Below, piece after piece: positions 21,754 to 25,007 of a DNA stretch of 64,000 nt (positions are counted from its first letter, which is position 1; every line of letters begins with the position of its first letter). The stretch is from Acidobacteriota bacterium (GTDB lineage: Bacteria; Acidobacteriota; Terriglobia; Terriglobales; Acidobacteriaceae), in NCBI GenBank assembly GCA_003225075.1, contig QIAP01000054.1:1-64000 (forward strand), given 5' to 3'. The translations under genes were made by a program, and so were the position numbers. A model generated the notes under the pieces. The model did not search any database and was not told where the DNA came from. It was given only the letters and a program-made list of their open reading frames with translations.

Positions 21754-22185
21754 TTGCGCTACTTCGATCGCCTGCAACCATTGGCATTGCTGGCACTCCG
21801 CATCGCGCTTGGCGTCGTCATGATTGCGCACGGTTATCCAAAAGTGTTCGGTGGCACGCAGAAAGTGATTCACATGATCTCGAGCCTCGGCTTGCCGGGA
21901 TGGATGGCCTACCTGGTTGCGGGGGCAGAGTTCTTCGGGGGCATCTGCGTTCTGATTGGACTATTCACTCGCTTTGCCGCGCTCACCATTTTCATCGACA
22001 TGTCTGTGGCCATCTGGAAAGTGCACTTGAAGAATGGTTTACTCGGGCCAGGCGGCTATGACTTCCCTCTCGCGCTGGCAGCGATCGCTTTCGCTCTGAT
22101 TTTTCTGGGAGGAGGCCCCATCGCACTCGATCATATTCGCGGCGGCACCGGCAGAGGCTGGTCTGCTAAGCCCAAGAAGTCCTGA
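21754..22185 (+). CDS. DoxX family membrane protein
   Basis: A 143-residue four-helix membrane protein with the DoxX signature: LRIALGVVMIAHGYPKVFGG near the start, GAEFFGGICVLIGLFTRFAA in the middle, and FPLALAAIAFALIFLGGGPIALD at the end. DoxX proteins are linked in various bacteria to quinol or redox stress functions, but the role here is unknown. The start is a TTG at 21754, supported by a strong AGGAGGG ten bases upstream. A second small membrane-protein gene follows 34 bp later. Confidence 0.9.
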   Translation: MRYFDRLQPLALLALRIALGVVMIAHGYPKVFGGTQKVIHMISSLGLPGWMAYLVAGAEFFGGICVLIGLFTRFAALTIFIDMSVAIWKVHLKNGLLGPGGYDFPLALAAIAFALIFLGGGPIALDHIRGGTGRGWSAKPKKS

Positions 22186-22711: not shown

Positions 22712-23503
22712 TTAGTGGTGATTCAGATATGCCGCTGAGGCAATCCGGTCGAACGGAACATTGGCCGGAATGTTATAACGCGCCATGATGTCCTGCATTT
22801 TGCGCGCATTCTCGTCGATGTCCTCGCGGTCGTTTTTGCGTCGCGCCTCCAGCCACTTCGCATAGTGCTTGTCGAATTTTTTCTGGTCATCCGTCGACAG
22901 CCTGGTGTACGACGCTGGTGCGCTGTAACCGTAGGCGCCGTTGCCGCCATAAGCGCCTGACGCATTGCTCGCGATCTGCTCGAACTGCACGCTGCTGGGA
23001 ATGTTGTAGCGCGCCATGATCTCCTGCATTTTGCGCGCGTTCTCGTCACTCTCTTCCCGTTTGTTCTTGCGGTTGGCCTCTACCCATTCGGAGTAATATT
23101 TGTCGAATTTCTTCTGATCATCGCGCGACAAGCGGGCCGGAGCGCCATATCCAGCATTCCCGGCATAAGGGCTCAGGGAGCCGTTCGAGGCAATCTGGTC
23201 AAATTGCACGTCGGACCGGATGTTATACCGCGCCATGATTTCCTGCATGTGGCGCGCGTTCTCCTCAACATCTTCCCGGTCGCCCTTTCGTCTTGCATCC
23301 AGCCATTTTGAATAATACTTGTCAAATTCACTCTGGTCGTCGGGAGACAGCCGGCCTGGCTGACCGTACGCCCCGCTCGGATACTGTCCATAAGCATCCT
23401 GTTGCCATGCAACGTTCAGGGTTCGTACCGAGTACGATTGCGCCACAGCGGGCAAAGTAGTCAGCCCAACCAATACAGCGAAAATTCCCAAGAATCTTTT
23501 CAT
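22712..23503 (-). CDS. Secreted protein with three 56-residue RLSxDDQ...MARYNI repeats
   Basis: A 263-residue protein with a signal peptide (MKRFLGIFAVLVGLTTLPAVAQ). Three copies of a 56-residue unit follow at about residues 51-106, 124-179 and 201-256, joined by Gly/Tyr/Ala-rich linkers. Each unit runs RLSxDDQ-xxFDKYY-xxW...RxxxxE...NARxMQ-IMARYNI-xxVxF-xIAS. The charged, helical centre and fixed length suggest a small independently folding domain. A single copy of the same unit ends the protein at 24366-25007. The start at 23503 follows a GGAGG. No known domain name could be attached; it is probably periplasmic or extracellular. Confidence 0.85.
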   Translation of the reverse strand: MKRFLGIFAVLVGLTTLPAVAQSYSVRTLNVAWQQDAYGQYPSGAYGQPGRLSPDDQSEFDKYYSKWLDARRKGDREDVEENARHMQEIMARYNIRSDVQFDQIASNGSLSPYAGNAGYGAPARLSRDDQKKFDKYYSEWVEANRKNKREESDENARKMQEIMARYNIPSSVQFEQIASNASGAYGGNGAYGYSAPASYTRLSTDDQKKFDKHYAKWLEARRKNDREDIDENARKMQDIMARYNIPANVPFDRIASAAYLNHH

Positions 23504-23600
23504 AAGTTCCTCCCGCGGAGCAATCTGGAGTACGCGGTAACCAGACTCGCCCCGCAACTAATGAGACGGAGAAATCTGAGTTGTCGGTTGGCTTGAACAT

Positions 23601-23673
23601 CGAGAATTTTGCGGATGAAACCTGGGCAACCCCAACCGCGTGACGCGGTTAGCTACCCCTCCAAAATTTCTCG
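23601..23673. promoter_or_regulatory. Candidate structured RNA or dyad element in a divergent intergenic region
   Basis: An outer stem (CGAGAATTTT at 23601-23610 with AAAATTTCTCG at 23663-23673, one bulged base) encloses GGG/CCC-rich arms and a perfect 7-bp hairpin (AACCGCG at 23634-23640 with CGCGGTT at 23644-23650). The element lies in the 308-bp gap between the divergent genes starting at 23503 and 23812. Read on the minus strand it would be in the leader of the repeat protein, about 100 nt before its start codon. No known riboswitch class could be assigned; orientation is unknown. Confidence 0.4.
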
Positions 23674-23811
23674 GCGGGTAAAAGGAGATGGACTCCCTTC
23701 CGGGGTGTGACTGTAGTCGCTAATTACATCAGCAATGTTGCCGGTTAGCGAAACGTGACTTGAAGACTAGCCGCCTTTCTTCGTACCCTACTCACGAGAG
23801 AAGGCTCCTCA

Positions 23812-24228
23812 ATGAGCACGCCTGAACGCCAGCTTCGTCTCGTGCAAGTCGCCTGCCTCCTTTTCGTTGCGGTGTGCATTTTTGTCAGGCATCTGGTGAA
23901 GCGTGAAACCCAGAGCGCTATCACCCCCACTCAGTGGCTCGTTATTGTGGCCGCGATCTGGGCTGCTGTTTCAGGGTTCACGGGGCAGCGCAGGATCGTT
24001 AGTGCCCGAACTCGGTCTCAACGAGCCTCAAGAAGATCGACACCCTTTAGCCGATGGAGGGCAGGGCACCTCATGCGGCTTTGGACTGCAACAATAGTCG
24101 CCCTGTGGGCGCTTGTTCTGCACGAAATCGGCGGTCCCTCACGGCTGGTTGATACTTTCTTTGCAGTCGGACTGCTTCTGCTGCTGGTGTGGAGGCCGGG
24201 AGCTAGTCCGACACCAACGCCGCCATGA
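23812..24228 (+). CDS. Small membrane protein, unknown function
   Basis: A 138-residue protein with four hydrophobic stretches (VQVACLLFVAVCIFV; WLVIVAAIWAAVSGF; WTATIVALWALVLHEIGG; FFAVGLLLLLVW). The second and third are separated by a very basic cytoplasmic-type loop (RRIVSARTRSQRASRRS). It ends in a Pro/Thr-rich tail. A GAGAAGG precedes the ATG. No family recognised. It is transcribed divergently from the repeat protein at 22712-23503. Confidence 0.7.
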   Translation: MSTPERQLRLVQVACLLFVAVCIFVRHLVKRETQSAITPTQWLVIVAAIWAAVSGFTGQRRIVSARTRSQRASRRSTPFSRWRAGHLMRLWTATIVALWALVLHEIGGPSRLVDTFFAVGLLLLLVWRPGASPTPTPP

Positions 24229-24309
24229 ACGTCGCGAGTCGAAGTGGAAATGCGTCGCTTTTAAAGCATCGCGGTTACCCCATGACCCTGAGCAGTCAAA
24301 GCCCGGGAC

Positions 24310-24335
24310 AAAAAAAGGCGCACCTAAGGTGCGCC
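24310..24335 (-). terminator. Intrinsic terminator
   Basis: A stem of 8-9 bp (GGCGCACC 24317-24324 with GGTGCGCC 24328-24335) and a short TAA loop is followed on the minus strand by a run of seven T (24310-24316). It terminates the secreted-protein gene ending at 24366. Confidence 0.9.
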
Positions 24336-24365
24336 CCCCAAGCTTGCAATTTCAAACAAGACTAA

Positions 24366-25007
24366 TTAGTAGCGATTAAAACTGCCGCCCTGTGAGGCAA
24401 TCTGGCTGAACGGCACGTTGCTGGGGATGTTGTAGCGTGCCATCAGGTCGCGCATACGATTCTCCATGCTCACCGCTTCACCCAGATTATTGGTCTGGCG
24501 ATACTGGCTCCAGCGTGAGTAGTAGCTATCGAAACGGTTCTGATCCTGCGGCGAAAGGCGCCCCTGATAGCCTCGGCCGTAATTTCCCCGGCCATATCCA
24601 CCATTACCGTAGCCGCCGTTGTAGCCCCCATTGTTGCGATAGCCGCCATTATTGCGGTAGCCGTCGTCGCGATCGCGGTCGCCATCCCGGTCACGGTCGC
24701 GATCTGCATCTCTGCGATGATTCCGGTTCCAGCGGTCGTGGTCACGATCCCTGTCCCGATCACGATCCCTATCTCGATCCCGATCCCGGTCTCGTCGCCG
24801 GTCGTCGTCGCGATCGCCCTGGCGGCGGTCATCATCCCGATCTTGCCAGGCTGGACTGCCGTTATAGGCAACGGTTGCGATCCCGGCGTGCTGCACGTTC
24901 GATAAAATATTACGCAGTTGGTCAGTTGACACCCCATTCGGCGACTGCGCAAGCAAAGGCATTGCCAAGCCCAGCATCGCAGCCGCAATTCCCCAAAGTC
25001 TTTTCAT
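24366..25007 (-). CDS. Secreted Asp-Arg/Gly-Tyr-rich protein with one C-terminal RLSPQDQ...MARYNI unit
   Basis: A 213-residue protein with a signal peptide (MKRLWGIAAAMLGLAMPLLAQ). The middle is low complexity: a long alternating Asp-Arg run (about residues 55-115) and then Gly/Tyr/Asn-rich repeats (RNNGGY, about 117-148). The C-terminus (about 150-205) is one copy of the 56-residue unit present three times in the protein at 22712-23503. The alternating charge pattern suggests a flexible polyampholyte linker. The start is supported by GGAGGAATC before the ATG at 25007. A set of TTTACA-type direct repeats lies 90-140 bp upstream. Function unknown. Confidence 0.8.
   Translation of the reverse strand: MKRLWGIAAAMLGLAMPLLAQSPNGVSTDQLRNILSNVQHAGIATVAYNGSPAWQDRDDDRRQGDRDDDRRRDRDRDRDRDRDRDRDRDHDRWNRNHRRDADRDRDRDGDRDRDDGYRNNGGYRNNGGYNGGYGNGGYGRGNYGRGYQGRLSPQDQNRFDSYYSRWSQYRQTNNLGEAVSMENRMRDLMARYNIPSNVPFSQIASQGGSFNRY
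24660..24835. repeat. Low-complexity GATCGx tract coding for Asp-Arg repeats
   Basis: Within the gene at 24366-25007 this stretch consists mainly of degenerate six-base units of the form GATCGN/GATCCC, giving alternating Asp and Arg codons on the minus strand. Such tracts expand and contract by slippage. Confidence 0.75.

Follow-up and report, generated by a model that had tools for sequence, protein, structure and literature searches.

Two neighbouring genes of the window (the whole 64,000-nucleotide stretch of acidobacterial DNA that was analysed) carry copies of a 56-residue unit, which is modelled as an independently folding all-helical domain, earlier unnamed. The unit very probably represents a genuine domain family that the searched libraries do not contain. 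Exported domains restricted to one lineage and without a known function are widespread, and modules of this kind are good candidates for how these bacteria meet their surroundings. In the present case, a domain missed by annotation libraries appears in putatively exported proteins of a mostly uncultured soil bacterial family, and both a 123-unit profile and a confidently modelled fold are ready for testing.

Units of P0001 and P0002

The gene P0001 (22712-23503, minus strand) encodes a protein of 263 amino acids without cysteine, for which the translation, the profile and the AlphaFold2 model delineate a signal peptide and three 56-residue units. The Sec-type signal peptide, read from the sequence as MKRFLGIFAVLVGLTTLPAVA / Q (23441-23503, minus strand), is followed on the same strand by unit 1 (23186-23353, 93.6 bits), unit 2 (22967-23134, 89.2 bits) and unit 3 (22736-22903, 104.5 bits), all scored with a profile without own-genome units and joined by linkers rich in Gly, Tyr, Ala, Asn and Ser. 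The translated P0002 gene (24366-25007, minus strand) yields 213 amino acids in the order signal peptide, Arg/Asp-rich stretch, Gly/Tyr/Asn-rich stretch and C-terminal single unit. Its Sec-type signal peptide reads MKRLWGIAAAMLGLAMPLLA / Q (24948-25007, minus strand), the mixed-charge Arg/Asp-rich stretch likewise read from the sequence spans residues 56-115 (24663-24842, minus strand), and the unit (24393-24560, minus strand; 95.6 bits) belongs to the subclass whose second helix contains SMExRM. The two genes are separated by 862 bp on the same strand, and terminator-like hairpins are located 3' of both P0001 (22664-22688, minus strand, read 22688-22664) and P0002 (24322-24343, minus strand, read 24343-24322). 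The first-pass annotation had described three units and one unit in genes about 0.9 kb apart on one strand, each with its own terminator, and these coordinates and scores bear it out. Two genes of the opposite strand alternate with the unit genes, a DoxX-like gene (21754-22185, plus strand), seen again in the corresponding slot of other genomes (see below), and a gene for a 138-residue membrane protein (23812-24228, plus strand).

With a scoring profile built solely from units of other genomes, the four window units reached 89-105 bits, whereas none of 10,000 shuffles of both proteins exceeded 9.8 bits. A search of the whole genome with the middle unit of P0001 returned the other window units at E-values of 9.5e-24, 2.1e-21 and 1.9e-12, together with a fifth unit of the same genome on contig C29 (E 5.5e-10). 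Each of the four window units comprises exactly 56 codons, and the motifs described earlier (RLSxxDQ, FDxxY, W, M...MARYNI, V.F and IAS) are all present in them. The fixed length claimed for the unit holds throughout the collected set of 54 proteins (some of them fragments), whose 125 units, 123 of them distinct, all have 56 residues and align gap-free. The most constant positions over the 123 units are D6, Q7, F10, D11, Y14, W17, M36, I45, P46 and A55; MARYNI itself is variable between genomes. An aromatic/aliphatic core is conserved across these units, most conserved residues are hydrophobic or cap a helix, and cysteine is present in just one unit of the collected set.

Modelled fold

The AlphaFold2 model of P0001, run with 15 sequences, places two antiparallel helices in each unit, the first of 19-20 and the second of 17 residues, separated by a tight turn; the PxxVPF loop then leads into a short helical piece. 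The predicted fold, which the first-pass annotation had proposed to model, is confidently a helical hairpin (pLDDT mostly 84-96 in the units), one and the same in every P0001 unit. The helices of P0001 were already predicted without any alignment. Given the pTM of 0.36 and the pLDDT below 50 in the linkers, the arrangement of the units relative to each other is not fixed.

Comparison with known families

Curated entries covering the unit were found in none of Pfam, NCBIfam, PHROGs, PADLOC and, by sequence, the PDB, and NCBIfam and PADLOC placed neither P0001 nor P0002. This agrees with the earlier impression of a unit outside nameable families, and the profile search that had been singled out as able to overturn it assigned the unit to no characterised family.

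The unit could, arguably, have diverged from a known helical-hairpin family such as DUF2786 (PF10979) or DUF7623 (PF24610) and been carried into exported proteins. P0001 as a whole does exceed the DUF2786 cut-off (26.4 bits vs 23.9), with MQEIMARYNI aligned to the model end, but this score is a sum over three units whose best stretch covers model positions 26-38 of 40; one unit alone reaches 13.4 bits over positions 26-38, and a single stretch that exceeds the cut-off of 23.9 bits while spanning most of the model's 40 positions was not found. The resemblance between the helical segment near the end of the DUF2786 model and MQEIMARYNI of the unit extends over just 13 residues, and the unit differs from DUF2786 in its longer first helix, in the core FxxxYxxW and in the conserved tail PxxVPFxxIAS. 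The DUF7623 model is similar in length to the unit, and one relative barely passes its cut-off as a whole protein (27.5 bits vs 27), but P0001 and P0002 were not among the Pfam matches, neither scored above 27 bits over the 64-position model, and the own genome gave no match at E<=0.01. When the own genome was searched stretch by stretch, DUF2786 was not matched at E<=0.001, and only 2 of 24 units matched DUF2786 or DUF7623 at E<=1. Membership of the unit in a known hairpin family is very unlikely.

Helix 1 of the unit begins with LSxxDQ, reminiscent of the LTxxQ motif of the LTXXQ family (PF07813; Spy, CpxP), whose members are exported, small and helical and carry L[ST]..-Q where a helix begins. 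Since the unit proteins are likewise helical, almost cysteine-free, charged and apparently exported, they might act as periplasmic helpers or chaperones of the Spy/CpxP type, binding unfolded clients. However, the motif spacing differs by one residue, and P0001 and P0002 have no LTXXQ match in Pfam at E<=10, whereas the same model detects two true members elsewhere in the own genome (57 and 34 bits); a fold match at E<=0.001 was also missing. We regard a Spy/CpxP-type function as decidedly improbable.

Further candidates were rejected. FtsK_alpha (PF17854) scored 23.9 vs 22.9 bits at the whole-protein level, but the best stretch covered 29 residues of the 101-residue domain, one of 24 units matched (E 0.2), and a motor domain is lacking. 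The annotated transglycosylase family phrog_21776 was matched by the whole protein at E 3e-7; the best single stretch of P0001 gave 15.6 bits (E 0.02) and covered model positions 36-97 of 238, no stretch was significant over most of the model, and none of 24 units matched alone. This and other PHROG, Lsr2, HSP70 and glucagon-type matches were set aside as short helical resemblances. The best E-values against PDB sequences were 0.013 for the whole protein (HSP70), 0.29 for the profile and 0.62 for one unit. A Foldseek search of the PDB with the three-unit model and its loose linkers found nothing at E<=0.001, nor did a fold search of viral models; this missing fold match says little, the hairpin being too simple and the query the whole three-unit model.

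Distribution

The search of proteomes with a profile, advised in the first-pass annotation, revealed the unit in 37 of the 398 genomes of the window's GTDB family (18 of 79 genera). Within the window's order, 10 of 200 genomes carried it, every one of them in the same family. A phylum-wide draw of 396 genomes returned the own genome, one family member and one weak partial match in G488 (E 0.006, internal stop), which was taken as chance. A pattern scan of 84,980 species detected 23 loci, all in acidobacterial metagenome-assembled genomes; its patterns were derived from a tighter set, the 24-row alignment being too varied for a pattern-based scan, and they favour the subclass KNDRDDI...MQDIMARYNI, so that outside the phylum the scan speaks for this subclass and not for the other. 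Plasmids and phages held no relatives of P0001, viral contigs held no unit, and the titles and abstracts covered by a literature search contained nothing on a 56-residue module. As far as could be searched, the domain thus appears confined to the window's GTDB family, and its earlier attribution to Acidobacteriota stands within that scope, narrowed to a single family.

Selection and expansion of the units

In four pairs of related proteins, dN/dS amounted to 0.02-0.14 in the units vs 0.04-0.26 outside them, with the units better conserved than the outside segments in each pair; the units are under strong purifying selection. The unit tree, weakly resolved with its 56 columns, contains two broad subclasses, both spanning genera, with the P0001 units in one and the P0002 unit in the other. 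In this tree unit 3 of P0001 clusters with the third units of orthologues in other genera, and the P0002 unit with those of similar one-unit proteins elsewhere. Because their units fall in different subclasses, P0001 and P0002 are best read as the likely products of an old expansion, not of a recent local copy. The module duplication by which the first-pass annotation had accounted for the neighbouring genes is contradicted as a recent local event. A genome of the same genus (G555, L079) has, adjacent to the gene of 2-oxoacid dehydrogenase E1, a gene with three units and an Arg/Asp-rich stretch, in contrast to one unit in P0002, which argues that unit number changes quickly.

Two observations concern individual unit genes. 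In G161 the gene at L078 (5581-6198, plus strand) is broken across several reading frames by decay or assembly errors. In the same-genus genome G555, near-identical unit genes with Arg/Asp- and His-rich tails were found at L080 (2379-2996, plus strand) and L081 (142-960, minus strand), one of the pair being interrupted by masked or unknown bases.

Export and architectures

By a simple rule, a signal-peptide-like N-terminus was recognised in 49 of the 54 collected proteins, and the remaining five are truncated or broken. In the window proteins the N-terminus follows the pattern MKR, hydrophobic stretch and AVA or LLA before Q; a lipobox-like match was present in only one collected protein. These N-termini strongly suggest that the unit proteins are exported via the Sec pathway, in line with their earlier description as exported.

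The commonest architecture consists of a signal peptide followed by 1-4 units with flexible linkers. In the collected proteins, 71 linkers measure 10-64 residues (median 20) and are rich in Gly, Arg, Asp, Tyr, Ala and Asn. The layout of P0002, with an Arg/Asp-rich stretch before one unit, recurs in L059, L082, L089 and L104, and in L065, L079, L092 and L096 units flank such a stretch on both sides. A unit is combined with DnaJ-like_C11_C (PF11875, DUF3395) in three proteins, namely that of the own contig C29 (L005/L100), L103 and L101, and with Inhibitor_I36/beta-gamma-crystallin (PF03995) in one protein (L090); both exported fusion partners are separate domains outside the unit.

Gene neighbourhood

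In 12 genomes including the own one, unit genes occupy a slot that has a HAD/2-oxoacid dehydrogenase E1 pair on one side and an HTH-pilMNOPQ cluster on the other, a count that includes loci where the contig holds only part of the slot surroundings. Neighbours were named from reading translations and from similarity between loci. As the unit genes in these genomes adjoin pilM and/or the E1 gene and lie just upstream of the HTH gene and pilMNOPQ, they might encode an accessory factor of the type IV pilus. However, E1 and pilM stay near neighbours without unit genes in relatives, e.g., L123, L130 and L132, and many unit genes are located elsewhere (L056-L058, L060-L064, L066-L069, L072, L076 and others); hence the slot most plausibly represents a variable site that is passed on together with its surroundings. 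Vertical inheritance of such a slot explains the gene order equally well, and the window genes have their own terminators, which renders a pilus function highly improbable. The neighbours give no functional clue beyond their shared position.

Proposed role

With the identity, spread, selection and modular reuse of the domain shown or strongly supported by these observations, we infer that the unit proteins may act by binding. The putative role that we favour, with about an even chance of being correct, is that of a multivalent, non-enzymatic binder or scaffold within the envelope or matrix. The proteins would leave the cytoplasm by the Sec pathway, as their N-termini imply, and their folded units would be spaced by flexible linkers in which Gly, Tyr, Asn, Asp and Arg abound. 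With such linkers, a protein of 1-4 units would resemble beads on a string and not a single rigid solenoid, and might serve as a multivalent binder or scaffold in the periplasm, at the cell surface or within the extracellular matrix. A non-enzymatic role is favoured because conservation lies on the helix core and caps and a catalytic-looking set of constant residues is absent from the collected units. A further reason lies in the fusion partners, exported domains that are small and apparently non-enzymatic, although themselves poorly understood.

The long Arg/Asp-rich stretches in P0002 and its relatives, together with the Gly/Tyr/Asn-rich linkers throughout, would also suit a protein that serves storage or forms a matrix or condensate, with the Arg/Asp- and Gly/Tyr-rich segments as the active parts and the hairpin units only cross-linking them. 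Yet most unit proteins are devoid of long Arg/Asp-rich segments (present in 5 of 54 by a strict rule), and the stronger conservation of the units than of the segments outside them speaks against such a division of labour; we consider it unlikely. Multivalent binding could be extended to a new domain by which soil Acidobacteriota would bind, outside the cell, a specific soil or envelope polymer, and which would be combined with Arg/Asp-rich segments into a condensed extracellular matrix; we view this as a long shot.

Fusion proteins

The L090 gene (6467-7114, plus strand), the sole fusion of its kind seen, matched Inhibitor_I36/beta-gamma-crystallin with 31.1 bits vs a cut-off of 21.1. The apparently exported proteins encoded at L100 (7304-8284, plus strand) and L103 (3484-4317, plus strand) carry one unit between two mutually similar stretches with a GDPAP motif, the second of which was scored by Pfam as DnaJ-like_C11_C. 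This domain is best known from mitochondrial DNAJC11, and its exported bacterial version merits separate study.
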